Positions 490-34,500 of a stretch of DNA of 39,509 nucleotides are shown piece by piece. The position numbers and the translations under genes are program-made. The notes under the pieces were generated by a model. The model saw only the letters and a list, made by a program, of their open reading frames with translations. It was not told the DNA's origin and searched no databases. Within the stretch, counting starts at the first letter, position 1. Each line of letters begins with the position of its first letter. The stretch comes from Saprospiraceae bacterium (lineage in GTDB: Bacteria; Bacteroidota; Bacteroidia; Chitinophagales; Saprospiraceae), in the NCBI GenBank assembly GCA_020848995.1, contig JADLHA010000050.1, positions 1 through 39,509 of the forward strand, written 5' to 3'.

Positions 490-507
490 ATAACGAACGT
501 ACGTTAT
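490..507. repeat. Near-palindromic motif site A (ACGAACGTACGT core)
   Basis: The 18 bases have the form ATAACG-N6-CGTTAT, so the outer arms are perfect inverted repeats. The core differs by one base from ACGAACGTTYGT, which recurs elsewhere in the window. It lies between the IS66 remnant and the 3' end of the SGNH hydrolase gene. Confidence 0.55.
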
Positions 508-1667
508 TATTGAGGACGGATCGCGACCAACTGAACGGAGGCCCTTCTTCCCCCGGTGAAAACGGCGAACTGGTATATCCCGGCAGGAATGTTCTGGAGA
601 CTCAAGCTGTTTTGGGAATGGGGTACCTCGCGCCCGGCGCCGCTAAGCCATGTGTGTCCGGTGGTCAGGTCGCGGAGTTCCCAGCGCAGGGGGCCCTGGA
701 GTTTGCTGTGCGTCCAATCGATCAGCAGATGATCCCCGGCCGGGTTGGGATAAGCACGCACCGGGTGGTCGCCGTGCTGGTCAGCGGTCCCGGTGAGCCC
801 GTCCCAACCGGCAATGCGCGCCATCAGCACCCAAAAGGCCTTGGCTACGCGGATCCCTCCGGCTGAAATGCTTCCCAGGTGGCCTCCTTCGGTTTCCGTA
901 GTGTATTGAGGACAGATGGCAGGGATGGCCAGCCCGTCATCGGGGTGTTGTTCGTCCAGGTAGTCCACTCCGTCGCGGTTGTCGTAGCAGGGTTTCCCGG
1001 CCGGGTCGTGCGACAGGATGTCGGCTACGTCGAACAACACGACCCCGTTGTTGCGGGCGTATTCCCGCATCTGGGCGTTGAACGATTCCGATTCGGGCGT
1101 GCCGATTCCGCGGGCCAGCGAAGTTGTCCACCAAACGATCGTCTTCCCGGCATGGCGGGCGGCGAAATCCGCGTACACCGTTGCATGGTTGCGACCGGGG
1201 TTACTGCCAAAAAAGCCATTTGCTGCATCGGCAATGCGCGACCCCGGTGTCACCGCCAGATAGGAGAACTGGCATCCCGCCACGTCGAGCGTATCCATCA
1301 TGGGACCGGCAACATCGGCAAAGCACTGCACGTCTTCCGAACAGTTGTTAGGCCAAAAAACATAAGTCCACCGGGAACGGTCCCATACGCCGTTCCAGTA
1401 AACTTCGGAGGGGTTGACCGCATAAGCGGAATCGCGGTGCTGGTAGCGCTTGCAATAGCTGGGAGCGGTGCTCCACGGACTGGCCAGGCAGTCGAGTGAA
1501 GACGATATGTTGGCACCCACGGAGCGGTCCATAAACAGCATCCGGAGCTGTGCGGCGCGCTCCTTGTATTCCGTCGGGATGCGGTCGAAGTCGGCAACCG
1601 AGTTCCGATCGATCACCAGACCCTGCGCCGTCAGGCCAACACCACATACCGCGAGTATGGTTGCCAT
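507..1667 (-). CDS. Secreted SGNH/GDSL-like hydrolase with T9SS sorting domain
   Basis: The reading frame is open from 1883, but the first 72 codons look non-coding. The Met codon at 1667 is followed at once by a hydrophobic segment ending in LTAQG, like a short signal peptide, so I place the start there (386 aa) with moderate certainty. A serine in FMDRSVG near residue 49 could be the GDS-block nucleophile. DEQHP further on fits the DxxH catalytic block of SGNH hydrolases. The segment GGHLGSISAGGIRVAKAFW follows, as in family members acting on esters or carbohydrates. The C-terminus has YPNPAGDHLLIDW and ends with an IPAGIYQF-type strand pattern, a type A T9SS sorting domain, so the product is probably exported to the surface. 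The substrate is not known. It stands alone, convergent with the IS66 remnant. Confidence 0.7.
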   Translation of the reverse strand: MATILAVCGVGLTAQGLVIDRNSVADFDRIPTEYKERAAQLRMLFMDRSVGANISSSLDCLASPWSTAPSYCKRYQHRDSAYAVNPSEVYWNGVWDRSRWTYVFWPNNCSEDVQCFADVAGPMMDTLDVAGCQFSYLAVTPGSRIADAANGFFGSNPGRNHATVYADFAARHAGKTIVWWTTSLARGIGTPESESFNAQMREYARNNGVVLFDVADILSHDPAGKPCYDNRDGVDYLDEQHPDDGLAIPAICPQYTTETEGGHLGSISAGGIRVAKAFWVLMARIAGWDGLTGTADQHGDHPVRAYPNPAGDHLLIDWTHSKLQGPLRWELRDLTTGHTWLSGAGREVPHSQNSLSLQNIPAGIYQFAVFTGGRRASVQLVAIRPQ

Positions 1668-1969
1668 CAGGCATGCCCTTATGCCCGGGATACCCGCTGC
1701 AAGGGAAACGAAGTGCGTCGAGGTGCGGTGTTCATCTGCAAAGGGAGCAAAAGAACAGAGGGCGGTTTCCTTCCCCGGAGAAATTTTCAGATCTGGACTG
1801 TGCATGGCGTTGAAACGTGTTTTGATTTCCGAACCGGCGATTGCAAATATAACGTTCCCGAAGTGCCTATTTTCCCGGAACAAAAGCCGTGCTGCACCAG
1901 GGAATAATTATACAGCAAATTGCGCGGCCAGTTTGCGACCGGCTTATGCCTCGCAGTCTTTATCCTGCA

Positions 1970-8056: not shown

Positions 8057-8206
8057 GGGCATCGTACGACAGAAAATGCAGCCGGATGACTAAAGTTAAG
8101 CCTTGGGGCTTCCATTGGGCGAAACGGGCTGAACACTTCTCCTGTCCGGTGCGGACATCTCCCCGGAAGGAATTTTGTCCTCCCTGCCTGGAGCGCATCC
8201 ACTTTA

Positions 8207-8229
8207 TACTTACGAACGTTTGTTTGTTT
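8207..8229. promoter_or_regulatory. Near-palindromic motif site B (exact ACGAACGTTTGT)
   Basis: The core is at 8212-8223, inside the 209-base gap between the nosY 3' end and gcvP. It is flanked by TACTT on the left and TGTTT on the right. The site sits about 155 bases upstream of the gcvP -7 box. A TetR-type operator is the simplest reading; which gene it would control is unknown. The rest of this gap shows no gene and no glycine riboswitch-like structure. Confidence 0.5.
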
Positions 8230-8235: not shown

Positions 8236-9012
8236 TCAGAGATCCTTGTTCCGGAAGATCCGCAGAGACATGATCAGCGGCAGGATCGTCCAGAGGAGGA
8301 GGATGCCCCCTGTATAGAGGATTCCCCGGTAACTCCCGAAAAACTCCTTGAAAAGAGCTCCGGTGTAGCCCATCAGCGCACTGACGTCCATGCGAAGCAT
8401 CATGGAGACCCTCGTTAGGTCAATGGGGTTGAGCGCGGTCAGCAGCAGGGTCAATCGCTCGAGGGGGTAATCGGAGAAGGTGAAAAGGATCATCAGCACG
8501 ATGCCGTCGTATACGAGGGCAAAGTAAAACCACAGCAACAGCACGATGCCGATTCCGCGTGCTTTGTCGCGCGCCAGCACGGCTGCGCAAAAGGCAATGG
8601 CGGTGCAGGCAAAGGTCAGCAGGGTGCCGGTGAGCAAAAAGTTAAACGCCAGCAAGTCCTGAAAATGCACCAGCACCGGGATGCCCAGGCCTACGACAAA
8701 TGCCAGCACCAGGGACAGGGCACAGGCAAGGAATTCGCTGAGGAACACCTGCCGTCTTCCCAGGGGTTGTGCCAATAGCATCTCGATGAATTCGTACGAA
8801 TTGTAGTAGTGGATCGTCGAAAAGATCATGCTGATCAGCGGAATGACGATCAGCTCGATGTTGAGCAGGCTCAACAGGGCCTTGTCGGGATTTTCTTCCA
8901 GGTTGAACAGCAGCAGCGCAGCCAGCAACTGGAATCCTGCATACAATACGATGACTTTGTTGCGGATGATGTCGGAGAATATATACCTGGTCAGTGTCCA
9001 CATGGCGGTCAT
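8236..9012 (-). CDS. nosY: NosY, ABC-2 type permease of the nos copper-site maturation transporter
   Basis: The 258-residue membrane protein has about six hydrophobic segments and the ABC-2 permease pattern NSYEFIEMLLAQPLGRRQVFLSEFLA typical of NosY. It is the last gene of the nos cluster and overlaps nosF by four bases (ATGA), so the two are co-translated. By family knowledge NosFY is an inner-membrane ABC transporter that works with periplasmic NosD to supply a sulfur species or copper for the CuZ site of NosZ. The start at 9012 gives MTAMWTLTRY; the Met at 9003 is possible. Assignment as NosY, rather than a generic permease, relies on neighbours as well as sequence. Confidence 0.9.
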   Translation of the reverse strand: MTAMWTLTRYIFSDIIRNKVIVLYAGFQLLAALLLFNLEENPDKALLSLLNIELIVIPLISMIFSTIHYYNSYEFIEMLLAQPLGRRQVFLSEFLACALSLVLAFVVGLGIPVLVHFQDLLAFNFLLTGTLLTFACTAIAFCAAVLARDKARGIGIVLLLWFYFALVYDGIVLMILFTFSDYPLERLTLLLTALNPIDLTRVSMMLRMDVSALMGYTGALFKEFFGSYRGILYTGGILLLWTILPLIMSLRIFRNKDL

Positions 9013-9722
9013 CCGTTACTTTGTTGCATAATGCTGGCGATGGCTTTCCCGAATTTCTGTTCGCCGGTGAAGTTGCGCAACTCCTCCATGCTGGCCTGGT
9101 AATGCACCCGCCCTTCCTGAAGATACAGGATGTGGGTCGTCAGGTCGTCGAGATCGCTCAGAATGTGAGAGGTGATGACCACCAGCCGTCTTTGATCCCG
9201 GATTTTCCGGATCTTTTCCTTGAGGATTTCGGAAGACAGCGGATCGAGTCCTGCCGTCGGTTCGTCGAGGATGTAGATTTCGGGATTAAATAGGAAGGCG
9301 ACCGCAGCGCTGACTTTTTGCCGGGTACCTCCCGACAGCGTGCGCATGGGCTGGTCGTAGATGCGCTCGAGGCGGTAATGGGCGATGAGTTCTTCGTCGG
9401 TTTGCCCGTCGTGTTTTGCACGGAGTGACCGGAGCAGGTCGAAGAGCTGGCCAACCTTCATGTGGTCGGGATAGCGGCCGATCTGGGGCATGTATCCAAT
9501 GGTAGACCGATAGTGAAAGTCCTTGCCAATGGGCTGGCCGTTGATGTGAATTTCTCCGCCATCCGGCCGCACCAGACCGAGAATGCATTTAATGAGGGTG
9601 GTCTTCCCGGAGCCGTTCGGCCCGATGAGCGAAACGACCTGATTCTCTTCCATCCTGAGGTCCACTTGCTGAAGGGCCCTGAGGCGCTTGAAGCTCTTGG
9701 TAAGTCCGCGCGTCTCGATCAT
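9009..9722 (-). CDS. nosF: NosF, ABC transporter ATP-binding protein
   Basis: The 237-residue protein is a complete ABC ATPase: Walker A GPNGSGKTT near residues 34-42, signature LSGGTRQKVS, Walker B IYILDEPTAGLDP, and a switch His in ITSHILSDLDDL. It overlaps nosD (9719-9722) and nosY (9009-9012) by four bases each, a tight translational unit. It energises NosY for maturation of the NosZ CuZ cluster on the periplasmic side. Length and motifs are normal, with no sign of decay. Confidence 0.95.
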   Translation of the reverse strand: MIETRGLTKSFKRLRALQQVDLRMEENQVVSLIGPNGSGKTTLIKCILGLVRPDGGEIHINGQPIGKDFHYRSTIGYMPQIGRYPDHMKVGQLFDLLRSLRAKHDGQTDEELIAHYRLERIYDQPMRTLSGGTRQKVSAAVAFLFNPEIYILDEPTAGLDPLSSEILKEKIRKIRDQRRLVVITSHILSDLDDLTTHILYLQEGRVHYQASMEELRNFTGEQKFGKAIASIMQQSNG

Positions 9723-10957
9723 ACGCGCACGGGTTTCATCAGCGGTCGCCGGTCGATCAGCAATTCCGGGGTAATGCTCGGAATGGCCTTTTCCGCTTTG
9801 TCGAGAAATGAGATGAGTATGCTGCGCAGCAGGATCAGGGTAAAGGGATTGCGCTCGACAACCATGGAGTACATGCTGACGGGTCGGTATGGCACGTCGC
9901 CCATGCCGTCGCGGGTGCGGTCGTACCCGTCGTATTTGTCCCAGTAGTTGCGGTCAAAGTCGTTGAGCACGAGGGTGCCGTTGGTGGCAATGTCGAAGGT
10001 GTTGCCGGAAAAATTGTTGAGGCTGATGCGATTGTCGTTGCAGCTGGCCTGAATGCGCATGGCCCATCCGTTTTTGGAAAAGGAATTCCAGAGTATTTGC
10101 ATGCGGCTAGATCCCTCCATAAATATGCCTACGGTGTTGTGCACAAAATAATTTTGCCCGATGTAGCTGTCCGTTATGTCTTTGAGCAACAATCCGTAGG
10201 CGGCGTTGCCCCAGTTGTGCAGAAATTCGTTTTGCTCCATGGTCACTTTGCGCGAGTACATAACGGCCACGCCGGCTCCATTTTCGATGAAGCGGTTGCC
10301 TTCGTAGCGGTCGTCGTTGGAAAACATAAAGTGCAGGCCGTAGCGCAGGTTGCCCCGGCTGGTATTGCAACGGATCCGGGAATCTGAGACAAATTCAAAA
10401 TAAATTCCGTCGCGATGTCCTGAAATGTCGTTTTCCTCTATGAGGGCGCTTTTGCATTTCCAGAGGTGGATTCCGTTGCCGGTGTTGTGTTCACTGCGCG
10501 GAACTCCTTCGATGGAATTGTTGCGAACGACGATGTCGCTTGCATTGGCAAGGTGGATGGCAAAATGACTGCGGGCGATTTGATTGTCTTCAATGTGCAC
10601 GCCGGTAATGTCGATGCACTTAATGGCAGCCAGGTCGTTCATCGCTGAAATTCCGCTGTTTTCAAGCCGGAAACCCATAACGATAATGTTCCGGCCGCTC
10701 AGGGTGAGGATGTCGTGGACGTTTTCGCCGTCGAGCAGGGGTCTTCCCACTCCAATGAAGGTAAGCGGCTTGTCAATCAACAAATTTCCTTCCCGGTAGG
10801 TTCCTCCCATGACCATTACCGTATCGCCGGCTGAAGCAAGATGGAGGGCTTCCGCAATGGTAGCATGCCCTTGTACGCCGCCCACGATGTATTGGACGGC
10901 ACTCAGCGGGAAGGCCATCGCCAACATGGCCAGAACCCAAAAGCCCCTCGCGGTCAT
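9719..10957 (-). CDS. nosD: NosD, periplasmic copper-site maturation protein
   Basis: A signal peptide (GFWVLAMLAMAFPLSAVQY) is followed by repeated short strand-turn units with many Asn/Ile/Gly, for example IVVRNNSIEG, ALIEENDISG and MEQNEFLHNWGN. This is the right-handed parallel beta-helix of the NosD/CASH family. The protein is about 412 residues long, normal for NosD. It acts in the periplasm with NosF and NosY to build the CuZ centre of nitrous oxide reductase. The frame is open to a GTG at 10963; the ATG at 10957, nine bases after the nosL stop, is preferred. The stop overlaps the start of nosF. Confidence 0.93.
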   Translation of the reverse strand: MTARGFWVLAMLAMAFPLSAVQYIVGGVQGHATIAEALHLASAGDTVMVMGGTYREGNLLIDKPLTFIGVGRPLLDGENVHDILTLSGRNIIVMGFRLENSGISAMNDLAAIKCIDITGVHIEDNQIARSHFAIHLANASDIVVRNNSIEGVPRSEHNTGNGIHLWKCKSALIEENDISGHRDGIYFEFVSDSRIRCNTSRGNLRYGLHFMFSNDDRYEGNRFIENGAGVAVMYSRKVTMEQNEFLHNWGNAAYGLLLKDITDSYIGQNYFVHNTVGIFMEGSSRMQILWNSFSKNGWAMRIQASCNDNRISLNNFSGNTFDIATNGTLVLNDFDRNYWDKYDGYDRTRDGMGDVPYRPVSMYSMVVERNPFTLILLRSILISFLDKAEKAIPSITPELLIDRRPLMKPVRV

Positions 10958-10966
10958 TGGCACCGC

Positions 10967-11995
10967 TCAGTCGATGTTTTGGTAAACGTAATCCCAGCCA
11001 ACGATCTGGCGACCGCTGCCCTGAGCAGAAAAATCTTTTGCAATGGCTTCTGAAGAGAACGCGGCCGTGTTAAAATTCATCGGACTCCGGACATCCTGTC
11101 CAACGACAAAATGGGCTTTGTCCACTTCGATCAGAACATTCTGTTGACTAAAGTCGGCTACGAGCACGTGGGCCATTTTGCGGTTGTCAAATTCTCCCGA
11201 CTTCATCATGCGCACCATGCAGCCTACATCGTCGAATTTGTAGACCTTGCCTTTTTCGGTGACGAGCTCAGCGCCAAAACGCAGGTCGACGATGCCCATT
11301 TTACACATGTGGCAAACATCGGTGCCTGGGATAAACGGTTCCGGCTTTGCCTTACAGGAGGCCGTAATGACAAACAGGGCAGCGAGGGCTGCCATCGGAG
11401 CAGCATTCGATTTGCGGGGACGGTGGCGGTTCCATTCGTAAAGCCACACCACGGCCATTACAGCAGCAGCGATCAAAACAATCCATCCTCCGACATCGGG
11501 CTGGGAGTACGCATCGAAATTGAGCAGCCTCTTGTGTCCGATGAGCGGCGGCTGGTAAGACAACCCGGGAACTTTAATGGCTGCCGCAGGGTCGAGGTTG
11601 TGGCCGTACTCGTATGCCCACCGGTAAAAATCGAACATGCTGAACACCCCCCCAAAAGCCGTGAACACCAGATACCAGAACAGGATTGCGAGTCGGCCAA
11701 ACCAGGCTACCAGCAATCCCAGCAGGATGTAAAACCCAACGATGTAAACCAGGAAAGCAAATTCCGGAAACATGTCGACCGTAATTTCCTTCATGCCGAT
11801 GTAGTGATTCAATCCGTTGATGATCTCCACATCCCCGGTAATGTCGTACAACCAGATATTCATCGTGAGTCCTTCCGGATACTGCGGGGCAAAGAGGTCG
11901 ATGCGCCAAACGGGAACAAAATAAGTTACGATCAGCAGCAGGGAGGCAAAAAATACAATCCAGCGGGAGGTCTGGCTCAATTTTGTTTTTCCCAT
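10967..11995 (-). CDS. nosL: NosL copper chaperone fused to an N-terminal multi-pass membrane module
   Basis: The 342-residue protein has two parts. Residues 1-200 form a membrane module with four hydrophobic helices (about 12-30, 77-100, 103-120 and 171-188) and no domain I can name. Residues 201-214 look like an embedded lipoprotein signal (MAALAALFVITASC). They are followed by a standard NosL domain with the Cu(I)-binding motif C228-H-M230-C231 and FDDVGCMVRMM. NosL is by family knowledge the outer-membrane or periplasmic lipoprotein that gives Cu(I) to NosZ. An internal start at 11395 could yield a free lipoprotein, but the frame is continuous. It lies between the fasciclin gene, with a terminator-like hairpin in the gap, and nosD. 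Confidence 0.88.
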   Translation of the reverse strand: MGKTKLSQTSRWIVFFASLLLIVTYFVPVWRIDLFAPQYPEGLTMNIWLYDITGDVEIINGLNHYIGMKEITVDMFPEFAFLVYIVGFYILLGLLVAWFGRLAILFWYLVFTAFGGVFSMFDFYRWAYEYGHNLDPAAAIKVPGLSYQPPLIGHKRLLNFDAYSQPDVGGWIVLIAAAVMAVVWLYEWNRHRPRKSNAAPMAALAALFVITASCKAKPEPFIPGTDVCHMCKMGIVDLRFGAELVTEKGKVYKFDDVGCMVRMMKSGEFDNRKMAHVLVADFSQQNVLIEVDKAHFVVGQDVRSPMNFNTAAFSSEAIAKDFSAQGSGRQIVGWDYVYQNID

Positions 11996-12102
11996 GAGAG
12001 GTGATTTTTAACCGCGACCGGAAGCGTTAAGAATAAGAAATCAAACCCGGTCAATTAGTAAATAAAATCAGTGTAAAAATGTTTTGCGAACCGGAATTTT
12101 TC

Positions 12103-12139: not shown

Positions 12140-12194
12140 CAAATCAAATCAAAAGTTCATGAACGCTCAGTATTGCATTTTGCAAGGGCGGCGA

Positions 12195-12767: not shown

Positions 12768-12803
12768 ATACTTTTCGTTTTTGTTATGAAAAAATAAAAA
12801 CTG

Positions 12804-18762: not shown

Positions 18763-18769
18763 ACACCCC

Positions 18770-19984: not shown

Positions 19985-20113
19985 AAAAGGCAGCCCGTTT
20001 TCGCAATAGCTCTTCTCCGAAAAAGCACGCGTGCATCCCGGGACTGCGCATTTTCGCTTTTGCATGGATTCGAAGCATTAACCGTTGCGTTCCACATTTG
20101 CAAAATTAGTAAT

Positions 20114-20131
20114 GAACAGACGTTCGTTAGT
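20114..20131. promoter_or_regulatory. Near-palindromic motif site C, next to a GT2 start codon
   Basis: On the minus strand the core reads ACGAACGTCTGT, one base away from the recurring ACGAACGTTYGT, and is flanked by ACTA. It ends exactly at the base before the ATG of the first GT2 gene. A bound repressor here would block transcription or initiation. Confidence 0.5.
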
Positions 20132-21148
20132 ATGAATATTTCCGTGGTCATTCCGGTTTTCAATGCTGCCACCTTTATCGAACGGGCCGTAACCTCAGTT
20201 GTAGCCCACCCGGAAGTTAAACAAATTATCCTCGTGGAAGACGGTTCTACGGACAACTCTTTGGAAATATGCCAGAGACTGACTGCTCAGCATCCGTGTG
20301 TTGAACTGCATCGCCATCCCGGAGGGGTCAACTGCGGAGCGGGAGCTTCGCGAAACACTGGCATGGCTCATGTGAATCAGGAGTACACCTGTTTCCTCGA
20401 CGCCGACGATACGTTCACTTCTATCCGCTTTGTGAAAGAGCGAGAGGTATTTGCGCAACATCTTGATGCCGATGGCGTGTACGGGGCCACCGGAACGGTT
20501 TACCACGATTCCACCGGAGCCGCAGCCTGGGAAAAGTCTGGCTTAGACGAAAACACACTTACAACAGTGAGAAAACCCGTTCCACCGAAAGCCCTTTTTG
20601 AATACCTCGTTGGTTACAGGCCTGCTAAGCACTCTCCGGGTCACATTCACCTCGATGCGCTCACGCTCAAAACGCGTGCGCTTCATAAATTAAATTTGAG
20701 GTTTGCTGAGCACCTCATTCTCCATCAGGATACGGCATTTATTTGGCAGTGCGCATACTATCTTCGAATGTATCCGGGAGAATTAGATCGTCCAATTGCT
20801 AAATATATTTTGCACCAGGGAAGCCGCTTCATACATTACACAGACCTTTCATCGTCAAGAACAGTATTTTTCAGTTTTCTATTAAATTGGATAAGGCAGG
20901 ACGGTCTTGAAAAGAAATACTTTTTGCACTTCAAAAGACTTTACTGCCGGGCACGGAAAGCAAATTGCTCGGTTTTAGAGCGCCTGGAATTATCCTTGAG
21001 TTTACTCAAACAAGACCCCGGGGCCCTTCACTTAATATTAAACGATTGCGTAGTTGCGAATATGTTTTATCTTGTTCGAATAAAGGCAAAATTTTGTAAA
21101 ATGGTCGGATTTAGATCCAGGAATGTCTCCCATGAGAAATCAAAATAA
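20132..21148 (+). CDS. GT2 family glycosyltransferase (tandem paralogue 1)
   Basis: A GT-A fold domain begins at once with MNISVVIPVFNAATFIERAV, then VEDGSTDNS and CFLDADDTF (the DxD-type metal/sugar-nucleotide site), plus DADGVYGATGTVYHD shared with the next genes. The ATG at 20132 matches where the family begins; a TTG at 20060 in frame is not needed. At 338 residues there is a C-terminal tail beyond the catalytic core and no membrane helix. It is the first of four adjacent paralogues. The sugar and acceptor are unknown. It probably adds residues to the polymer exported by the Wzm/Wzt pair. Confidence 0.9.
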   Translation: MNISVVIPVFNAATFIERAVTSVVAHPEVKQIILVEDGSTDNSLEICQRLTAQHPCVELHRHPGGVNCGAGASRNTGMAHVNQEYTCFLDADDTFTSIRFVKEREVFAQHLDADGVYGATGTVYHDSTGAAAWEKSGLDENTLTTVRKPVPPKALFEYLVGYRPAKHSPGHIHLDALTLKTRALHKLNLRFAEHLILHQDTAFIWQCAYYLRMYPGELDRPIAKYILHQGSRFIHYTDLSSSRTVFFSFLLNWIRQDGLEKKYFLHFKRLYCRARKANCSVLERLELSLSLLKQDPGALHLILNDCVVANMFYLVRIKAKFCKMVGFRSRNVSHEKSK

Positions 21149-22230: not shown

Positions 22231-22248
22231 GCAATTTCACTCTTATTC

Positions 22249-23256
22249 ATGGATGTATCCGTTGTAATTCCTGTTTACAATGCCGCTTCATTTATCAGCG
22301 AGGCGGTGAATTCTGCCTTAGCTCAGCCTGAAGTAAAGCAAATTATACTTGTAGAGGATGGATCTTCAGACAATTCACTTGAAGTTTGCAGAGCATTGGC
22401 CTCTGAATCGTCGAAAGTTGAGGTGTACAGACATCCACACGGCACAAATTGTGGAGAGGGGGCCTCGAGAAATCTGGGCATGGAAAAGGCCAGACATTCC
22501 TATATTTCCTTTCTCGATGCCGATGATTTTATGCTTCCGGGTCGTTTTGAGACAGATCGTGGGGTCTTTGAACGGTATCCGGATGCCGACGGGGTTTATT
22601 GTTCGGTACTCAACTTCTTTCACGACAGCACCGGTAAGGTAGCATGGCTCAACAGGGGATTCAAAGAATCATCGCTTACGGGATTGAGCGAACCGGCAGA
22701 TCCTGGATCCCTTTTTAACATTCTGACGGGTTATCTGCGCAATCAACCCATAACGGGACACCTAATTCCCGATTGCCTTACCATAAAGAGGGAATCTCTT
22801 AAAGCGGCAAGAATTCGCTTTCCGGATGAGCTTCGTATGCATACCGACACGCTTTTTATCTACCAGTGCGCCTATTATTTAAAACTCTATGCTGGGGTAC
22901 TTGACCGGGGTATAGTAATGAGACGCATTCATAGCAACAACGCGTTTATTCACGAAATGGATATTCAGCAGACAAGATCTTTGTTTTATCTTGCTACGAT
23001 CCGGTGGGCGGTAAATCAAAAGCTGCCAAGACGTTACATTTTCTATTTCAGGAGGCGTTACTGCTCTTTAAAGGAAGAGAATTGCCGCCTTTTTGTGGGT
23101 CTGTTATTACATCTTAGAAGCTTCTGTGCTGATCCCCACTACCGGAGAGCTTCTAAAGAAAAAGCGCGCAAACGGACCATTCTGAAGAAAGGGGTTTTTT
23201 CATTCCGAATTTTTGACGAAGCTTTTGCCATTTTTACCCCCGCCTTTAAAAAGTGA
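22249..23256 (+). CDS. GT2 family glycosyltransferase (tandem paralogue 3)
   Basis: Starting from MDVSVVIPVYNAASFISEAV, the 335 residues carry VEDGSSDNSLEVC, HPHGTNCGEGASRNLG, SFLDADDFM and DADGVYCSVLNFFHD. It is the most diverged of the four paralogues and has a longer, basic C-terminal tail (ASKEKARKRTILKK). The start at 22249 is set by homology and by the promoter at 22200-22230. Its stop overlaps the GTG start of the next gene. The substrate is unknown. Confidence 0.9.
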   Translation: MDVSVVIPVYNAASFISEAVNSALAQPEVKQIILVEDGSSDNSLEVCRALASESSKVEVYRHPHGTNCGEGASRNLGMEKARHSYISFLDADDFMLPGRFETDRGVFERYPDADGVYCSVLNFFHDSTGKVAWLNRGFKESSLTGLSEPADPGSLFNILTGYLRNQPITGHLIPDCLTIKRESLKAARIRFPDELRMHTDTLFIYQCAYYLKLYAGVLDRGIVMRRIHSNNAFIHEMDIQQTRSLFYLATIRWAVNQKLPRRYIFYFRRRYCSLKEENCRLFVGLLLHLRSFCADPHYRRASKEKARKRTILKKGVFSFRIFDEAFAIFTPAFKK

Positions 23257-24185
23257 ATGTAAGCGTCATCATACCGGTTTACAATGCGGGCAACTTCGTA
23301 GAGGATGCCGTGAAATCAGCGATTCAACACCCGGAAGTACAACAGGTCATCCTGGTAGAAGACGGATCCCCGGACCATTCTCTCGAAGTTTGTGTTCGGC
23401 TTTCCCAACAGTATCCAAAAGTAGAATTGCACCGCCACCCCGGCGGCGTCAACCGGGGCGCAGGGGCCACCAGGAATGAAGGTTTGCGATGGGTTCGGTG
23501 CGAATTCGTATGTTTCCTGGATGCCGATGACTACTTTACCTCCCTGCGATTCCAACGGGAACGGGAAATCTTTGCCCGGCACAGCGATGCTGATGGCGTT
23601 TACGGCGCAACCGGCGTGTGGATTGAAGATGCCGTTGGAGGAGCCGCCTGGACACAAAGTGGATTCGGTATAACTCAACTCGATACCGTAAACAAGGAAA
23701 TAGACCCCAAAGCACTTTTCGATTTTTTGACGGGTGTGCGCAACTGCGACAATTACTCCGGTTATTTTACTATCAATGCTGTGACATTTCGAAGCTTGCG
23801 CTTAATTGATAGTAGAATTCAATTCAATGAACACCTGCCCCTTCATGAAGATACCGACTTCTTTTTCAGACTTAGCCATTCCGCGAAATTACATACAGGA
23901 GAATTTGAGCAGGCTGTTGCGATTCGCCGAGTGCACCAGGATAACCGATACCTGTTTGACAATGAGCGCCGCCGGACACACCGATTGCTCTACGCCGAAC
24001 TGCGCAAATGGGCTGACTCCATTCCCCTGTCCTGGCGCCATCGGTTCACGTTTGCCTGGTACCATTTTGCCGCAAGATTCGAAAATTTTCCGCAAGTAAA
24101 GCGCGTCCTACTCATTCTGCACGCTCTGTTTTGCGACCCCTGCTTTGCAAAACGAGCGCTTTCGCGCCTATTGAAAGGGAGGTAA
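23253..24185 (+). CDS. GT2 family glycosyltransferase (tandem paralogue 4)
   Basis: A GTG start overlaps the preceding stop as GTGA, so the gene is translationally coupled. The 310-residue product reads MNVSVIIPVYNAGNFVEDAV, VEDGSPDHSLEVC, HPGGVNRGAGATRNEG, CFLDADDYF and DADGVYGATGVWIED. The core motifs are intact. It differs from paralogues 1 and 2 in the acceptor half (LTGVRNCDNYSGYF), which may mean a different acceptor. Confidence 0.9.
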   Translation: MNVSVIIPVYNAGNFVEDAVKSAIQHPEVQQVILVEDGSPDHSLEVCVRLSQQYPKVELHRHPGGVNRGAGATRNEGLRWVRCEFVCFLDADDYFTSLRFQREREIFARHSDADGVYGATGVWIEDAVGGAAWTQSGFGITQLDTVNKEIDPKALFDFLTGVRNCDNYSGYFTINAVTFRSLRLIDSRIQFNEHLPLHEDTDFFFRLSHSAKLHTGEFEQAVAIRRVHQDNRYLFDNERRRTHRLLYAELRKWADSIPLSWRHRFTFAWYHFAARFENFPQVKRVLLILHALFCDPCFAKRALSRLLKGR

Positions 24186-24255
24186 AGCGCGACGGATCCG
24201 CTAATGGAATAAGCTGTTCCCGGAGCAGGGATCGCAGGGGCAACGTTCATTTCAC

Positions 24256-24263
24256 TATCTTTG
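24256..24263 (+). promoter_or_regulatory. Candidate -7 box immediately before a GT2 gene
   Basis: TATCTTTG matches TAnnTTTG fully and ends four bases before the ATG at 24268. No clear TTTG lies about 20 bases upstream. If it is active, the transcript would begin at or next to the start codon (leaderless), or translation would begin at the second Met (24283). Confidence 0.4.
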
Positions 24264-24267
24264 AATT

Positions 24268-25332
24268 ATGGCATCAGATCCAATGCCCGATCTCGGAACG
24301 GTGCAGCTCAGCATCATCCTTCCATTCTACAATTCTGCCCGCTGGCTTCCTTCCTGTCTGAAGGCGCTGTGCGGCCAAAAGCACAGGTCGCTGGAGGTAC
24401 TTGCCATCGACGACGGATCTAAAGACGATTCCGCCAGAATCGCAGAAGATTTCGCAAAAAGAGATCCCCGCATCCGACTGTTCCGGATTGACCATACCGG
24501 GCCAGGGGCAGCACGAAATATAGGGCTTGAAAACGCGAGGGGCAAATACATCGGATTTGTCGACAGCGACGACTTGATCCATGCCTCTATGTTTGATGCG
24601 ATGGTTGCCACCGCACGTGATGCAGACGCTGACGCCGTAGTTTGCGATTACGTCCTCCTCCGCCCAATACCCTTCGGAAAAGTTTGGGCTCAACGTGCAA
24701 ACGTTACGTCTTTAAGTGATCAAAACGGCCAATTCGCATGCCCTGCCGGAGGCAGATTCAACCCGTTTACCCTGAATCCTGCACCTTGGAATAAAATCTT
24801 CCGCAGGGAACTCATTGAATGCAACGGCATTCGATTTACCGAAACGCATCACTACGAAGACGTGCCCTTCGTTTATACATGCCTGATGCGGGCACACCGG
24901 GTGGGTCTGGTTGAACGCCCACTTTATAGCCACCGCTACCGTTGGCCCGGATCGGTCTCCGCTGCTATAGATGAGCGTCGCTTCGATATTTTTCCCTTGC
25001 TTGACCAGCTGGAGGACACCGTTCGCTGTACGCCGGAAATAAGCCATCAACTCGATCATTTTCTTACATTTCGAAAAAGCACGTTGCTCTATCACCTCAG
25101 CCACGTACACCCCTCCTTGCGGGATGCTTTCTGGCAGCGCATTCAGGCAACGCTTTATGATGGCGATCATCACAAGCAATACGTTGCCCGGTCCTGTCCA
25201 CGAACGCTTGTGCTGCGAATCAGGATCGTCAATGCTCTTGGGCAAGCCCTGCTTTTTATCGTCGGGAAACACGCCGCTGCATTCAGAGGCGTACACAAGG
25301 TACTGTTGTCGTGGTTCACCACACCATCATAA
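24268..25332 (+). CDS. GT2 family glycosyltransferase (WcaA-type)
   Basis: The 354-residue protein is a GT2 enzyme of another subgroup than the four before it. It has LSIILPFYNSARWLPSCLKAL, AIDDGSKDDSARI, GPGAARNIGLENARG and GFVDSDDLIHASMF, then APWNKIFRRELIE and HHYEDVPFVYTCLM, typical of capsule and LPS glycosyltransferases. There is no membrane segment. It closes the plus-strand glycan block and is convergent with the GT4 gene at 25562. The 229 bases between them hold an inverted repeat, GTTAC-N4-GTAAC at 25489-25502, without a T-run, and nothing else clear. Confidence 0.92.
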   Translation: MASDPMPDLGTVQLSIILPFYNSARWLPSCLKALCGQKHRSLEVLAIDDGSKDDSARIAEDFAKRDPRIRLFRIDHTGPGAARNIGLENARGKYIGFVDSDDLIHASMFDAMVATARDADADAVVCDYVLLRPIPFGKVWAQRANVTSLSDQNGQFACPAGGRFNPFTLNPAPWNKIFRRELIECNGIRFTETHHYEDVPFVYTCLMRAHRVGLVERPLYSHRYRWPGSVSAAIDERRFDIFPLLDQLEDTVRCTPEISHQLDHFLTFRKSTLLYHLSHVHPSLRDAFWQRIQATLYDGDHHKQYVARSCPRTLVLRIRIVNALGQALLFIVGKHAAAFRGVHKVLLSWFTTPS

Positions 25333-25561: not shown

Positions 25562-26644
25562 TCAAATTGTTTTGCCTTGCAGCACCCCGTCCAGGAAAGG
25601 CAGAAATACCTCCTCTGTCAGTCGCCCGTAGTCGTTCATCATGGCCTTTTCGCGGATGGCGTTGCGGTCAAACGATTCAAATCGTTGAATCATTTGGCGG
25701 AGTCCTTCACAAACGCTGGTTTCGTCGTCACCGATGAGGACCCCGCAGTTGGGATCGACGATCTGCCGGTTGCTCTGCGTCGCCGTAGCCAGCACGGGCA
25801 TACCGTGCATGAGGTATTCGAAGGTCTTCGTCGGAGGTTGCGCATCGTATTTCGGAAGCACCGGTACAAAAGAAAGGCCGGCGTTGCACCTTTGAAAAAC
25901 CGCTTCCAGGTCATCCCCGCGCAACTCTCCGGTAAATTCCACCCTTCCAAGCAGCTCTGGTTCGGCGATGGTACGGCGCAGTACCGCTTCTTCCTCCCTG
26001 GAGCCGTAACCGACGATGGTAACATGCAGCTTTCTGTTTCCGGGAGGATCATGAAGAAATCGCCGGAACCCCCTCAAAAAAACGTCAATATTCCTTCCCG
26101 TCAGGATGCCTACGTAAAGCAGTTTAATGTCGTGTCCGGGAATAAAAGGTACCATATCTGCCCGGGCAGCGCCAACCGGAATAATAACGAACGTTCGTTT
26201 GTATCCTATCCTCTGTGGAAGTTCTCCAGAAACGAAACTCACGTGCCGGAACAGCGAGAGCTCTACGAGCATCATGGCGTTGAGCAGGCGGTTGATCCAT
26301 TCGCGTTGCTCAACAAAGCCCGTTCGCACATCTGCGATCACCGGCACTCGCGGGAACGCTAACTTCAACATGCTGCACAATGGCGTGTAGCAAATGAAAA
26401 CCACGTCGTACCGGTGGCATCGCATTTCAGAAATGCAGGCGCGGAACAGGCGCAGGTTTCGCACAATGGCGGTCCCCGATTTTACCGGATGCCGGACGCG
26501 CACCTTGCCGTCAGGCCTTTGCGGCTTGCGCTCGTCACAACCGATGTAGCTCACTGCGAAATGGGCTGAAAGTTCATTGCAGTAATGAAAGGCATCCGTA
26601 TGATAACCAAACTGGCTGACGTCGACCCACAGGAGTTTTTTCAA
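25562..26644 (-). CDS. GT4-type glycosyltransferase
   Basis: The 360-residue protein has a GT-B layout: an N-terminal acceptor half (LWVDVSQFGYHTDAFHYCNEL) and a C-terminal nucleotide-sugar half with LLYVGILTGRNIDVFLRGF, VTIVGYGSREEE and PTKTFEYLMHGMPVLAT. The last segment corresponds to the EX7E region of GT4 enzymes; the first Glu is present in KTFEYL, while the rest is loose. Its start overlaps the stop of the next GT4 gene upstream by four bases. The motif site D lies inside this gene. Donor and acceptor are unknown; a role in the same surface glycan is likely. Confidence 0.87.
   Translation of the reverse strand: MKKLLWVDVSQFGYHTDAFHYCNELSAHFAVSYIGCDERKPQRPDGKVRVRHPVKSGTAIVRNLRLFRACISEMRCHRYDVVFICYTPLCSMLKLAFPRVPVIADVRTGFVEQREWINRLLNAMMLVELSLFRHVSFVSGELPQRIGYKRTFVIIPVGAARADMVPFIPGHDIKLLYVGILTGRNIDVFLRGFRRFLHDPPGNRKLHVTIVGYGSREEEAVLRRTIAEPELLGRVEFTGELRGDDLEAVFQRCNAGLSFVPVLPKYDAQPPTKTFEYLMHGMPVLATATQSNRQIVDPNCGVLIGDDETSVCEGLRQMIQRFESFDRNAIREKAMMNDYGRLTEEVFLPFLDGVLQGKTI
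26184..26204. repeat. Near-palindromic motif site D (exact ACGAACGTTCGT), inside a gene
   Basis: The core at 26187-26198 is a perfect 12-base palindrome with ATA on its left and TTGTAT on its right. It lies within the GT4 coding sequence, where it encodes KRTFVII on the minus strand. An intragenic copy is not what a simple promoter operator would predict. Confidence 0.5.
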
Positions 26645-29240: not shown

Positions 29241-29708
29241 TCAATTGTTGAGGGCCCCCTGGCGAATCCAGGTCAGCACCGAATCAATTTTTTCGGAAGA
29301 CCAGGCAGGTCCACCCTGAGGCATCAGCAGTAATTCACCCCGGAGATGCCGGATGAGCAAACTGCTTTCGGGCTGCACCGGATCAACGTAGGGCGCATTG
29401 AAGCCGTCGGCAACCAACTGGTTGTAGGAGACCGGAGGACGCAGGTCGAGTTTGGGATGAGAGGGGTTGTGGCAACCCTGAACGCAGCCCTTTGCCAGCA
29501 TGGGCTTGATGAAATTATTGTACGACAGCGTGTCGCCGGCAGGCGGATCCACCACCGTATCGCAGGAGTGACCGTGGTCTCCGTGCCCATTCAGGATCAG
29601 CGGCCCCTGGTCTTTTTCGCAGGAGGTCAAGCCTGTGATCAAGAGAGCAACTGCTCCACAGACTAACCACTGTAAAGCCGGATAACGAACGTTTGTTAGT
29701 TTTTTCAT
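29241..29708 (-). CDS. Cytochrome c-like lipoprotein with unusual CxxxCH motif
   Basis: The lipoprotein signal ends at LTSC (C30), followed by a His-rich stretch (GHGDHGHSC). The haem-like motif is C75-V-Q-G-C79-H80, with three residues between the cysteines instead of two. M129 lies in LLMPQGGPAW, and the tail DSVLTWIRQGALNN matches the paralogous gene downstream, six bases away. The protein is 155 residues. The wider motif may still bind haem c, as spaced variants are known, or may bind another metal. Its start overlaps the stop of the DUF5777-like gene. Motif site E lies just inside the coding start. Confidence 0.8.
   Translation of the reverse strand: MKKLTNVRYPALQWLVCGAVALLITGLTSCEKDQGPLILNGHGDHGHSCDTVVDPPAGDTLSYNNFIKPMLAKGCVQGCHNPSHPKLDLRPPVSYNQLVADGFNAPYVDPVQPESSLLIRHLRGELLLMPQGGPAWSSEKIDSVLTWIRQGALNN
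29682..29700. promoter_or_regulatory. Near-palindromic motif site E (exact ACGAACGTTTGT)
   Basis: The core at 29685-29696 lies within ATAACGAACGTTTGTTAGT. It covers codons 3 to 9 of the CxxxCH lipoprotein gene. A similar half-site, TTGTTAGT, sits at the same distance from the start codon of the DUF5777-like gene at 30603-30610. Confidence 0.5.
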
Positions 29709-30619
29709 TTTCTCCAGTAGGTTCTTTGAATATTAAAACCGAGCAGGAAGTGCCCATCCAGCAGATCCGCCGATCGGGTGGTGTAGATCTGGCTCTCGAG
29801 TATCCGCGAGGCGTTGCTTACGAACAACTGGAAAACGTGTCCGGCGGTACCAAACTCCACCCCCACCGAAAAGGGATCTATAAAACCGGCCGACCGGTTG
29901 TTGAAGACCCTTGCATATTCGAAGATCAGTGCGCTGCTGAAGCCCAATTTGTAACGCCCGCCTGCCGACAACACCATGGTGAGGTTGTCGTTTCCCGCAG
30001 GAACGAGGTTTTGGTAAATGAAAACAGGCGTTAGTTGCAGGGTCCAGCGCTCTGACAGTTTCGATGAAACGATGAGTTGCGTGTTGTACGCCAGGCGGTG
30101 GCCAAATTTGTAGCGGAAAGGCGTTATGGAATCGCCGAAATAGGCGTTGGGCGGAACGGAGGGAAAGTCCTCCGTTCGCAAGGCCGCATTGGCATAAAGG
30201 GCCATTGACACCGGCATTTTCCAATTGGTCGTTTGCCGGGCAAACTGGTATTTTCCTTCGAGGTCGAGGGTTTTGGAAGCGTTGGTCCTCCCCAATTCCA
30301 GGTACAGACGGTCTGAGAAACTCCAGCCCAGGGCAAGGCGGATGGTCGACGGCAGGTCGAATCCGAGAAATTGCTCTACCAATGAAGAATCCAGCCCCAC
30401 CGTGCCAAAGCGATGCTGGATCTCGAAATACCAGGATCGGGCAGGTTGGATTTTCGTGGTCTGCGCGTTGATGAGCTGGGTTCCGGTGAACGCAAATTCA
30501 ACCGGAGAGGAGACGCTTTCCTGCGAGGGATTCTCCGGCCCATCCTCCTGCGCCACCAGGGTGGGTAAGAAACTGGCCAGAACCAGACCCACAAACAAAC
30601 ACTTGTTAGTTTGCAGCAT
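29705..30619 (-). CDS. DUF5777-like outer-membrane beta-barrel protein
   Basis: A signal peptide (LFVGLVLASFLPTLVAQ) is followed by alternating polar/hydrophobic strands typical of a beta barrel. Blocks characteristic of the DUF5777 group are present: FAFTGTQLINAQTT, WYFEIQHRFGTVG, TIRLALGWSFSDRLYLELGR and a C-terminal aromatic strand. The frame is open to 30664, but the Met at 30619 (MLQTNKCLFVG) sits right before the signal peptide and is preferred (304 aa). The gene follows a cytochrome c gene after five bases and overlaps the next gene. The function of the family is unknown; its repeated company with cytochromes suggests a redox-linked porin or scaffold. Confidence 0.82.
   Translation of the reverse strand: MLQTNKCLFVGLVLASFLPTLVAQEDGPENPSQESVSSPVEFAFTGTQLINAQTTKIQPARSWYFEIQHRFGTVGLDSSLVEQFLGFDLPSTIRLALGWSFSDRLYLELGRTNASKTLDLEGKYQFARQTTNWKMPVSMALYANAALRTEDFPSVPPNAYFGDSITPFRYKFGHRLAYNTQLIVSSKLSERWTLQLTPVFIYQNLVPAGNDNLTMVLSAGGRYKLGFSSALIFEYARVFNNRSAGFIDPFSVGVEFGTAGHVFQLFVSNASRILESQIYTTRSADLLDGHFLLGFNIQRTYWRK
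30591..30614. promoter_or_regulatory. Degenerate motif site G at the start of the DUF5777-like gene
   Basis: The stretch contains ACAAACAAAC followed by ACTTGTTAGTTTGC. It shares the half-site TTGTTAGT with site E and lies just inside the coding start, but lacks the AACGTT centre. A weak call. Confidence 0.3.
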
Positions 30620-30624
30620 GGGTT

Positions 30625-31020
30625 CTACTTTTTTAAAGTGCGTATGTAGTGTACGAGGTTCCACCGCTGATCAGCCGTCAGAGAATGTTTGTAGGGAGCC
30701 ATCGTACCGCGACCTTCGGTGATTTTCCAAAAGAGCGCCCCATCCGTTTGCTTTTGAACGGCTGCCGATGCAAAATTGGCGGGTTTGGGATTCAGCGCCT
30801 GTGCGGCAGGACCGTTGCCCGTGCCGTCAGCGCCGTGACAGGTCTGGCAGATGGTGGAAAAAACCTTTTTTGCATCCTTCATTCCCGCCTCGGTCTTTTT
30901 TACCGGATTGGCCACTTTGCTGGCTGAAGCCGGAACTACCCACGGCTCCTTCCCTCCCTGGAACGACATAAAACAGGCGGCAACAATTGCGGCCACAGGG
31001 ATCATCAGTCTATACTTCAT
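30625..31020 (-). CDS. Mono-haem class I cytochrome c
   Basis: The 131-residue protein has a hydrophobic N-terminal export signal (IPVAAIVAACFMSFQGG), the haem motif C58-Q-T-C61-H62 followed by GADGTGNGPAAQALNPKPANF, and M107 in GRGTMAPYKHSL as axial ligand. The tail QRWNLVHYIRTLK is typical of cytochrome c class I domains. It should be a soluble periplasmic electron carrier. It is the first gene of the operon with the DUF5777-like barrel and two cytochrome-like lipoproteins. Confidence 0.93.
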   Translation of the reverse strand: MKYRLMIPVAAIVAACFMSFQGGKEPWVVPASASKVANPVKKTEAGMKDAKKVFSTICQTCHGADGTGNGPAAQALNPKPANFASAAVQKQTDGALFWKITEGRGTMAPYKHSLTADQRWNLVHYIRTLKK

Positions 31021-31581
31021 TTGTTATCAATTGTTTATAATTCAAGATCGGCCGGTTTACCCCCTACGCCCCATCCCGTCCAGAAACAAGTTCAGCTGTA
31101 TGTAAGTAAACGTTCACTCGCAAAGATACTTCATTAAAGAGATCAACGTCTTTTTCCTCCTTTTCGTTCCGGTCAACGCAGAAATACCCCCTGGAGACGT
31201 GCCCGTTTCCTTTCGCTGTTGCCCCTATGGTTTTCATCACCACGCGGGTGTCGTTTTTTGCAGTGGCTGCCAAAACCGTCGGGGGTTTCTTCAATCCATC
31301 AAAAAATAGTTTGGTTGTCTGATCCACACATTACAAAAAAAAAATGCATTGCGCAGCGCACATCAGCACACTGAACATTTGCAAAAACGTGCATGCGAAA
31401 ATTTATCAAAAAACATTTGGCGGTCTCGCAGCAATGCGTCTACATTTACCACAGGAAAAACGAAGTAAACAGCAGATCGCTGTATCTTTTCCGGGCCTGT
31501 CATTTAACACCCTACTCAGAATTCACCTCATTTAATCTCCTGCTCAGGCTCGCGGCTTTTATCTGATCATACCACAGTATT
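31021..31581. other. Intergenic region between the cytochrome operon and the HYR protein gene
   Basis: This 561-base divergent gap holds no convincing gene. It contains the palindrome AGTAAACGTTCACT at 31105-31118 and an A-run at 31335-31343. A weak promoter-like pair lies on the plus strand: TTTG at 31416-31419, 21 bases, then TACATTTA at 31441-31448. An 87-codon frame on the minus strand (31064-31327) has no homology I recognise and a GTG start, and I leave it out. Confidence 0.5.
31105..31118. promoter_or_regulatory. Near-palindrome site H upstream of the cytochrome operon
   Basis: AGTAAACGTTCACT is a 14-base inverted repeat with one mismatched pair, sharing the AACGTT centre of the other sites. 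It lies 85 bases upstream of the start codon of the first cytochrome gene, a good place for an operator. Confidence 0.45.
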
Positions 31582-34500
31582 ATGCGAAAAACGATTACCC
31601 CCCTGTCGTTGGGCATACTCGTTTGCCTGACCCTGATTGCGTCTGTTCATGACGCCATTGCGCAACCGGCTAAAGCGCAGGACCCTACCATTCCTCCGTC
31701 TGCGAGCAACTGCGTGCAGCCTCCCATCATCCATTGTCCGCCACCGTTTAATGCTTGTCCCGGGACTTTGCTGGATCCGGACGTGACCGGATGGGCAAAA
31801 GCGCGAGCGGCGCAGCCGGAATGTCCAAAGCCGGTTCTCAGCTACAGCGAACGCACCCTCCAAACGGGGACCTGCGCCGGTAGCCTTCTGTTGCAGCGCA
31901 TCTGGACCGCTGCTGATCCTGCCGATCCAAGCCTTCGCTCTTTTTGCATACAATACGTCAGTTCACTGGACACCCTGGCCCCGCATTTCTCCCATTGTCC
32001 CCGGGATACCGTCATCCTCAGCAACGAGCACTGCGTAGGCGTGTTCCGCTGGGAAATGCCCTGTCTGTCGGATGGCTGTGGCAATTTTGAATTGCATTCC
32101 AGCCATCCCAACGGCGGCGAGTTCTCCATTGGCCACCATCTCATTCTGCTTACGGCGACCGACGAATGCGGCAATACTGCCTCCTGCCAGTTCAAGCTCG
32201 AAGTTCTTGAAAACTGCTGCCAGCATCCTCCCCGGCTCTCCTGCCCTCCGGATTTCACCGGCTGCCCTTCACAATCGACCGATCCTTCAGAAACCGGTTT
32301 TGCCATTGCCACAAAATCCTCTCCCACCTGCAATGATCCCATCCTATCGCACCATGATTCGATCGTACATACGAACGTTTGTACGTATGCAATACTTCGC
32401 ACGTGGACGGCAACGGATCCCGACAACCCGGAGCTCCACACTTCGTGTACACAGCACATCGTGCTCGAAGACCACACCCCTCCCACAATAACCTATTGTC
32501 CGCCTTCGGTAACCGTGTCGTCTGACGAACATTGCGAAGCGGTCATCGAATGGGATGATCCCTTGGCGGTCGATGCCTGTGGCACTGCCAATGTGACAAC
32601 ATCCCTGCCAAAAGATTTCAAATTCCAGCTTGGCGTCACGGGCGTGGTCGTGATCGCCACCGATGCCTGCGGCAATACCTCCAAATGCGAATTCGTGATC
32701 ACGGTCACCGAAAACTGTTGCCGGCAGGCACCTGCCATTCAGTGCCCCTCCGACTACACCACCTGCCCCGGAGCATCGTTGGATCCCGCTTTTGCCGGAA
32801 GGCCAACCGTTCATCCGGGAGGGCCCCATTGTCCTCCTCCACTGGTTAGCTCTGCCGACCTCGTTCGCGACTCCTCAGCCTGTTCCCGCAGCATAACCCG
32901 CATCTGGACGGCAACCGACCCGGTGAACCCGGCATTGACTGCACATTGTTCACAACAATTGCGCGCAGAAGATCATCAGCCTCCAATCATCAGCTATTGT
33001 CCGCCGAACGTCACCGTTCAGTCCGACGAGAATTGCGAAGCAGTCATCAACTGGAGCGACCCGGTTGCCAGTGACGGTTGCGGTGATGTTCAGGTAACGA
33101 CATCGCTTCCTAGAGATTTTAAATTTCAAATCGGCGTTACGGGCGTGGTCGTGATCGCCACCGATGCTTGCGGAAATACCTCCAAATGCGAATTCGTGAT
33201 CACGGTCACCGAGAATTGCTGCAGGGAAAATCCGGAAATTCTCTGTCCTGCAGACTATACAGATTGTCCAGGCGCATCCCTGGATCCTTCCGTCACGGGC
33301 ACGCCACAAGTAAATACTGCTTCACCCAGTTGTCCGAATGCAGTACTGGAATATCGAGATGACACCATCGCTCTGGAGCCATGCCGTTTGCAGATAGCGC
33401 GGACATGGACTGCTTACATTCCTGGCAAAGAACACTTGCGCGCGTCTTGTGTACAACAGTTGCATTACGAAGACGAGGATGAGCCGTATTTCACGTTTTG
33501 TCCGCCGGATCAGCACGTTGCTTCCGATCCGGACTGCCAGGCCAGCGTTTCCTGGCGTGCTCCCATCGCCAAAGATGCCTGTGGAGGGGTGACCCTTCTG
33601 AGCAGCCACGCCTCGGGTGCCCGTTTTCCGCTTGGATCGACATCCGTTCAGGTCGTGGCCACGGATGCCTGCGGCAATACTTCGTCCTGTGCATTTCAGG
33701 TCACGGTTGCAAACAACTGCTGCCAGCATCCGCCCAGCCTGGTCTGCCCTGCCGACTTCACAGGATGCCCGGGGACCTCGTCTGACCCTTCTGTCACCGG
33801 TACCGCCACCGCGCTCCCCGGGGGCGCACACTGTGGACAACCCCTGTTGAGTTACCGCGACAGCATTTTGACACAAAGCACCTGCAACACGGAATGGATC
33901 CGCATTTGGGAGGCGCGGGATCCCATTTTCCCGGAACTCGCAGCGCGGTGTGAGCAGCGCATCCGGTTTGCAGACCGTCAGGCTCCGGTGATTACCTACT
34001 GTCCGCCTTCGCGCATCATCGCATCCGGTCCCAACTGCGAAATCGTCGTTGGTTGGGACGACCCGCAGGCAACCGATGCCTGTGGAGATGTTCAGATCAG
34101 CACCTCCTTACCTAAAGACTTTTCCTTTAAGCTCGGGATCACCGGCGTGGTGGTCATTGCAACCGATGCCTGTGGCAATACATCCAAATGCGAATTTGTA
34201 ATCGACGTGCTCGAAAACTGCTGCAACGATGCACCCGTCATCACCTGTCCGCCCCATTACCAGGACTGTCCCGGTGCAGACATCGACCCTGCTTTGACCG
34301 GCAGTGCTACGGCAAAGCCCTACCACAAAGCCTGCAGCCCGGCGGTAATTTCTTATACGGACGTACTCACCCTGACTCACTTGTGCGACCTGTCAATTGA
34401 TCGCATCTGGAAGGCGACCAATCCCAAAAACAATGCAGCTTCACAATGCATCCAAAACATCCGCCTGGTTGACACGACGGCTCCGGAATTTTTGAGTTGT

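Follow-up and report, generated by a model that had tools for sequence, protein, structure and literature searches.

A lineage-specific, chromosome-wide DNA palindrome in a Saprospiraceae genome and its possible nucleoid-occlusion-like role

Palindromic sites in the window and across the genome

The 39,509-nucleotide stretch analyzed here (the window) is the entire contig JADLHA010000050.1 (C50) of a 52-contig, 3,141,349-base assembly of a Saprospiraceae bacterium (GCA_020848995.1; the genome under study, G000), and it carries repeated copies of a near-palindromic 12-mer, ACGAACGTTYGT, both between and inside genes. According to a weight matrix built from both strands, which was trained on part of the sequence that it scanned and controlled against reversed sequence, the 12-mer is the core of a 24-bp palindrome, AWACTAACRAACGTTYGTTAGTWT, with a half-site (CNAACNAAC) in which a CNAA step recurs; beyond 12 bp from the center there is no strong bias, with no base above 34% (167 sites). 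The window contains eight sites that score at least 18 bits, the threshold used throughout for a strong site.

Exact copies of the 12-mer lie, as listed in a first-pass annotation of this DNA, at 8212-8223, 26187-26198, 29685-29696, and 32371-32382 (five strand matches at four places; perfect palindromes match on both strands, so strand matches outnumber places). The same annotation placed two exact copies deep inside genes, which holds for 26187 and 32371; the copy at 29685 lies at the first codons of an open reading frame (ORF), and that at 8212 is intergenic. Both of its one-mismatch copies are present, one at 493-504 rather than 494-505, and one at 20116-20127, within the reported range of 20114-20131. 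The matrix adds two sites absent from that list, with cores at 30595-30606 and 34682-34693. A third one-mismatch match (25200-25211) scores below 14 bits in the matrix and is degenerate in G006, a sister species of the same genus, and was not counted as a site.

The leftmost site (487..510, core 493-504, ACGAACGTACGT; 19.8 bits) adjoins the stop end of a minus-strand ORF at 507-1883, i.e., the 3' end of a gene, and has the same core in G006 (C17:1144). The next (8206..8229; 30.5 bits) lies directly past the stop of a minus-strand ABC-2 permease gene (8236-9012), upstream of gcvP, and its core is identical in G006. Between two plus-strand genes, approximately 10 bp before the start of a glycosyltransferase gene, is a site at 20110..20133 (25.0 bits), for which G006 retains the palindrome with altered letters (23.7 bits). 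The perfect palindrome at 26181..26204 (30.0 bits), within a minus-strand glycosyltransferase gene (25562-26644), again has an identical core in G006. The site at 29679..29702 (25.4 bits) occupies the first codons of a minus-strand ORF (29241-29708) and has a retained G006 counterpart that differs by a single core letter (21.8 bits), and the site at 30589..30612 (21.9 bits), near the start of a gene called inside a minus-strand ORF (29705-30664), corresponds to C17:31957 in G006 (20.0 bits). The last two sites, at 32365..32388 (26.1 bits) and 34676..34699 (23.1 bits), are both within a plus-strand HYR/lectin-domain gene (31582-36630); their G006 counterparts score 23.8 bits (with altered letters) and 28.4 bits, respectively.

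The GcvP protein encoded in the window has its nearest named relatives in Saprospiraceae genomes derived from metagenomes. Based on Pfam matches, the minus strand encodes a nos_propeller nitrous-oxide reductase-like protein (12804-14774) and a NosD protein (9719-10963), as well as the ABC-2 permease at 8236-9012; ABC ATPase-like and cytochrome-c-like ORFs were recognized by reading, and the minus-strand region 8236-15289 as a whole looks like a nitrous-oxide reduction cluster. In the region 17725-25332, an ORF resembling an ABC-2 export permease is accompanied by an ABC ATPase whose match to Wzt_C is sub-threshold and by five consecutive glycosyltransferase-like ORFs, of which four resemble one another (the one scanned belongs to family 2); this arrangement suggests surface polysaccharide export. 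The large protein encoded at 31582-36630, whose gene bears the last two palindromes, has seven HYR stretches, a C-type lectin domain, and a GEVED domain.

Across G000, exact copies of ACGAACGTTYGT stand at 115 places, of which 50 are full palindromes and the other 65 are asymmetric, and a reversed-pattern control gave two strand matches. The expectation that the 12-mer should be rare by chance was borne out in the window, where the five strand matches compare with an average of 0.02 over 100 dinucleotide-shuffled versions. The 2.06 Mb of G000 scanned with the matrix contain 167 strong sites, which extrapolates to approximately 255 per genome, a rough figure because the sampled stretches were partly picked around site-rich or site-poor contigs. 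G000 and G006 combined (1.08 Mb scanned) yielded 100 strong sites, compared with none in reversed sequence, and strong sites inside coding sequence number 80, compared with 1-11 in 20 synonymous-codon shuffles. The comparison of the genome-wide count with expectation, named beforehand as the refuting test, thus places the motif far above both the chance and the codon-shuffle level, and the shuffles, the reversed pattern, and the synonymous-codon shuffles rule out chance or codon usage as its source. A mobile repeat of the REP/MITE type was also rejected: no longer repeated unit extends beyond 12 bp from the center, and half of the sites are genic. Close pairs of sites occur (23 within 60 bp at a score of at least 13 bits in the G000 and G006 stretches), with 15 of the 23 spaced 14-23 bp. 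The exact 12-mer was not found in the papers searched, and publications on Saprospiraceae palindromes, judged by their listings, contained nothing relevant.

Placement, conservation, and phylogenetic range

Relative to genes called with a simple script rather than a standard gene finder, 42 of the 167 strong sites fall in convergent gaps, compared with 2.9 expected by length (approximately 14-fold), and 33 fall in co-directional gaps (9.5 expected). Only one is in a divergent gap (5.1 expected), 85 are genic (147 expected), and six are at contig edges (2.9 expected). For sites in co-directional gaps, the median distance is 39 bp to the upstream stop but 94 bp to the next start, and 22 of 33 are nearer the stop; genic sites are skewed toward the gene end (31 of 85 in the final fifth). 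This placement at gene ends, with avoidance of promoters, is the opposite of that of promoter operators and unlike that of ordinary operators. The proposal of a local TetR-type operator, made from the window, is not supported, given the avoidance of divergent (promoter) gaps and the 85 genic sites, although the binder itself could nonetheless be of the TetR type.

The sites are retained as DNA between the two species. In 393 kb aligned between G000 and G006 (approximately 85% identity), 41 of 42 strong G000 sites are also strong in G006, with the remaining one at 17.6 bits; in the reverse comparison, 41 of 42 strong G006 sites are strong in G000, and the remaining one scores 10.4 bits in G000. 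The ten fixed core positions are 97% identical at 19 genic and 94% at 17 intergenic sites (those of the 42 that passed margins and class rules), compared with 86% and 84%, respectively, at random places. Third codon positions within genic cores are identical in 64 of 66 cases (97%), compared with 69% elsewhere, and therefore selection acts on the DNA. Genic sites occupy all three frames (41, 28, and 16).

Among 119 genomes searched (G000, eight of its genus, 62 more of the family, and 48 more of the order), the motif is present only in G000 (85 forward and 80 reverse strand matches to the exact 12-mer) and G006 (86 and 80). The seven other genus members have zero or one strand match, and the remaining 110 genomes at most four each; conservation in relatives, by which the motif was to be judged, therefore holds for one of the eight genus members searched and fails for the seven that lack the motif. 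A matrix scan of 154 kb from these seven gave a single match of at least 14 bits (14.3 bits), and a scan of 1.28 Mb comprising 80 named loci gave nine matches, compared with 12 in reversed sequence. An AT-richer form in relatives, AACAAACGTTTGTT, was considered and rejected: G000 has 14 places with it and G006 has 15, and of 18 other genomes searched only G072 has it, at one place. A 17-mer was found in six contigs of a viral collection, at one place each (palindromic in two of the six), and one of these contigs has two weaker sites (15-16 bits); no link of the motif to phages was seen among the six. The signal is real, strongly selected, lineage-specific, and chromosome-wide.

A site-free region and the replication axis

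Two G000 contigs, C48 (211 kb, no strong site) and C41 (97 kb, one strong site), together sample 308 kb of a contiguous desert, in which 29 sites are expected. The deficit extends to each class of position, with one genic site compared with 15.5 expected, sites in none of 22 convergent gaps of 24-1000 bp (30 of 133 elsewhere), and sites in none of 74 co-directional gaps (30 of 527 elsewhere), and these class-wise counts rule out the desert as a by-product of gene layout. Evidence that depends less on the choice of contigs comes from G006, where 20 kb of C48 and 20 kb of C41 map in the same orientation to one 480-kb contig. The exact sites listed for this contig are only at 54, 62, and 83 kb, with none from 83 to 480 kb (397 kb), where at least 8.9 are expected (Poisson probability 1.4e-4 or less). 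Assembly contamination was ruled out as the cause of the desert, given that the C48 and C41 pieces lie on one G006 contig and, in order, on one contig of another genus member (G007). The desert is AT-richer (GC 0.49-0.50, compared with 0.527 in C28 and C6) and more diverged from G006: its identity is 77-82%, whereas the majority of the remaining aligned blocks are at 84-90%, although a block within the window is also at 80%. A short repeat in C41 at approximately 48.3-48.5 kb (locus L235, ~8317-8490) accounts for the majority of those listed among 144 matches in G006, where its copies are approximately 41 and 148 bp apart; it represents an interspersed tandem repeat family.

The cumulative GC skew reaches a maximum in C48 at 166.8 kb (value 3045; a plus-to-minus change), and the skew of C41 is negative throughout in the raw data and in four of five bins after gene-strand correction. 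Contig C38 carries a parS pair at 56624 and 56683, 59 bp apart, in which one member is canonical (14 of 14 fixed letters) and the other partial (12 of 14). In the left 20 kb of this contig, seven of eight windows have negative skew, all 16 windows at 40-80 kb have positive skew, and the minus-to-plus change falls between 20 and 40 kb. This parS pair with its origin-type skew change favors the reading of the desert as the terminus region, which the position of parB (see below) had put in doubt; an origin in C38 and a terminus in C48 are the simplest reading of skew, parS, GC, and divergence, and a probable one. Clusters of DnaA boxes were uninformative for the origin. The dnaA gene is on C29, and one Hi-C study reports that the origin is not always marked by dnaA (PMC10197239). 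A tRNA-Ser (gct) gene followed by a simple GTGTGGGTGTGAGT-type repeat, seen by eye, is located just after dnaA (locus L244, 2664-2910).

Possible function and candidate binder

With close to an even chance of being right, we interpret the motif as the site of one predicted sequence-specific DNA-binding protein that would use the whole chromosome as a platform, in the manner of nucleoid occlusion or of a chromosome-position signal. Among the genome-wide signals that the first-pass annotation had offered, the nucleoid-organizer type is the best supported (115 exact sites, positions kept in G006, a macro-scale desert), and a methylation target is unlikely for a motif so long. A putative dimer, or pair of dimers, would bind the 24-bp palindrome along the chromosome, sparing the region near the terminus, with the placement at gene ends and silent positions limiting interference with promoters. 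The bound protein would mark unsegregated DNA and hold back division, or a different step of the cell cycle, until only the terminus, free of sites, was left at midcell. We infer this nucleoid-occlusion-like role from the layout of the sites.

Known systems provide partial parallels. MatP acts through matS, a short palindrome located inside Ter that defines the terminus macrodomain; here, the presumed terminus is nearly empty (one site compared with 29 expected), and the sites are not confined to it. The SBS motif of Escherichia coli SlmA differs from the motif described here. SlmA and Noc sites are palindromic and under-represented in Ter, and in E. coli and Bacillus subtilis this layout is considered to enable the two proteins to prevent division across the DNA up to a late stage of segregation (PMC4726725). 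As with SlmA, palindromic sites are spread over the chromosome here, and they would share the scarcity in Ter if the near-empty region is the terminus. SBS number 24-52, compared with approximately 255 sites estimated here, and the strong 3'-end placement is a further difference. NBS, the Noc sites of B. subtilis and Staphylococcus aureus, are likewise palindromic and sparse in Ter, with approximately 70 in B. subtilis (PMC4726725). However, Noc is a ParB relative, and the motif-bearing genomes hold a single ParB_N match: one match each was found in eight of nine genus genomes, including G000 and G006, with none in the ninth (66% complete), and a Noc-like second ParB is absent from G000 and G006 in this search. 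The system would fall outside the Noc kind. Its many specific palindromic sites over the chromosome (115 exact; 167 strong in 2.06 Mb) have a layout like that of nucleoid occlusion, and it may work like SlmA or Noc.

It is possible, if rather doubtful, that this is a third, independently evolved system of the nucleoid-occlusion type, the first in Bacteroidota, which would have arisen within one genus. To our knowledge, little has been established about the coupling of division to chromosome segregation in Bacteroidota, and a literature search on nucleoid occlusion in Bacteroidetes returned, judged by titles, nothing about such a system. If the interpretation is correct, protein-binding sites numbering a few hundred can become distributed along a chromosome, and be individually maintained, within the divergence time of species in one genus, and the pair of genomes with the signal, together with near relatives that lack it, would allow the beginnings of such systems to be studied.

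Several observations weigh against a nucleoid-occlusion type of function, or against the replication axis on which it draws. We know of no case in which strong 3'-end placement is a hallmark of nucleoid occlusion. The Poisson probability for the desert in G000 (6e-12) is not a fair test alone, as the contigs were chosen after their low counts had been seen; heterogeneity of exact sites over all 52 contigs reaches only p = 0.04, and the variance-to-mean ratio of sites in windows of 20 kb is 1.35, falling to 1.16 when C48 is excluded. Site density tracks GC (rho 0.46) and the desert is AT-richer, making a base-composition cause possible, and the one G006 site that is weak in G000 (22 bits compared with 10.4 bits) is inside the desert. 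Our confidence is slightly lowered because site density in C38, where 60 kb hold nine strong sites compared with 4.9 expected, is not significantly above average (P 0.06); other contigs are denser, such that a smooth origin-to-terminus gradient is not supported. A plus-to-minus skew change is likewise present in C28, where the cumulative skew reaches 1451 at 81 kb, yet this contig is site-dense (22 in 160 kb), and C24 has a minus-to-plus change after gene-strand correction, yet is site-poor (three in 160 kb); the latter contig maps to G006:C2, with no link to the desert. The genome beyond the 2.06 Mb scanned may hold other parS sequences or site-poor regions. The genes parAB are usually near origins, and the single parB is in the desert (G000:C48:107004-107282; G006:C1:206004-206282), where the skew peak of the terminus type is approximately 60 kb away, whereas the parS pair is on a different contig; this would be unusual if the assignment is right. 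A dif site was not found, either by consensus or by conservation.

Other explanations account for parts of the same evidence. The sites could serve chromosome folding, as targets of a nucleoid-associated or condensin-loading protein that avoid the terminus and play no part in division; this is unlikely, but has an appreciable share of the probability, as it draws on the same layout evidence as nucleoid occlusion, and nothing here separates the two. One Hi-C study found no known condensin in its two Bacteroidetes strains, a further point in favor of such a signal (PMC10197239). The operator of a global transcription factor, a repressor or activator (TetR-like or not) that controls a large regulon, would suit a long palindrome, which is typical of dimeric regulators, and three of the eight window sites are near starts (20116, 29685, and 30595); however, the single site in divergent gaps, the 42 in convergent gaps, and the 85 in genes run counter to it, and it does not predict a macro-scale desert. 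We regard it as improbable, and assign a similarly low probability to a roadblock or terminator that ends transcription at gene 3' ends, as an RNA hairpin or a bound protein. Such a function would fit the enrichment in convergent gaps, the 22 of 33 co-directional sites nearer the upstream stop, and the skew of genic sites toward the gene end (31 of 85), but half of the sites are inside genes and none of the 22 convergent gaps of the desert has one. The hairpin form is disfavored by wobble orientation in co-directional gaps, where the transcribed strand is A-C at 12 sites and G-U at two, opposite to what a hairpin needs, but not by genic sites, where the G-U form is somewhat commoner (23 to 16).

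A DNA uptake sequence maintained by biased transformation, as in Neisseria and Pasteurellaceae, is the least probable of these alternatives, and we think it quite unlikely. Such sequences (DUS/USS) occur genome-wide, in genes and at gene ends, and the palindrome shares these features as well as a species-restricted occurrence and retained positions. However, known uptake sequences are non-palindromic and several times denser, and we know of none with a terminus desert. The desert of G000 bears core-looking genes (gyrA-like, ribonucleotide-reductase-like, and MutS2-like, by N-terminal reading) and is syntenic with G007, and is therefore not expected for an uptake sequence; a literature search for DNA uptake sequences in Bacteroidetes gave, by title, none on such a system.

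For the protein-bound platform that we favor, binders were sought in the TetR and ParB families, and the defined 24-bp sequence would provide a ready assay for pulling down the putative binder. G000 and G006 each encode four TetR proteins, and the other seven genus members none to two. For one of those in G000 (C44, ~53895-54518), G006 encodes a counterpart with 85% identity, whereas only short similarity, of helix-turn-helix length, links it to five proteins from four other genus members (five of the eight TetR matches in the seven other members). The other three have longer matches there: C1 with 71% identity in G001 and 54% in G008, C32 with 37% in G004, and C24 with 26% in G007. The C44 protein is a candidate binder and nothing more. 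Its best NCBIfam scores are all below cut-off (BetI 71 of 201 bits, RefZ 42 of 180, and SlmA 26.3 of 120), and it is not SlmA by the NCBIfam model, in a scan that covered this one of the four TetR proteins. Of its 153 PDB matches, the 60 listed are TetR-type regulators.

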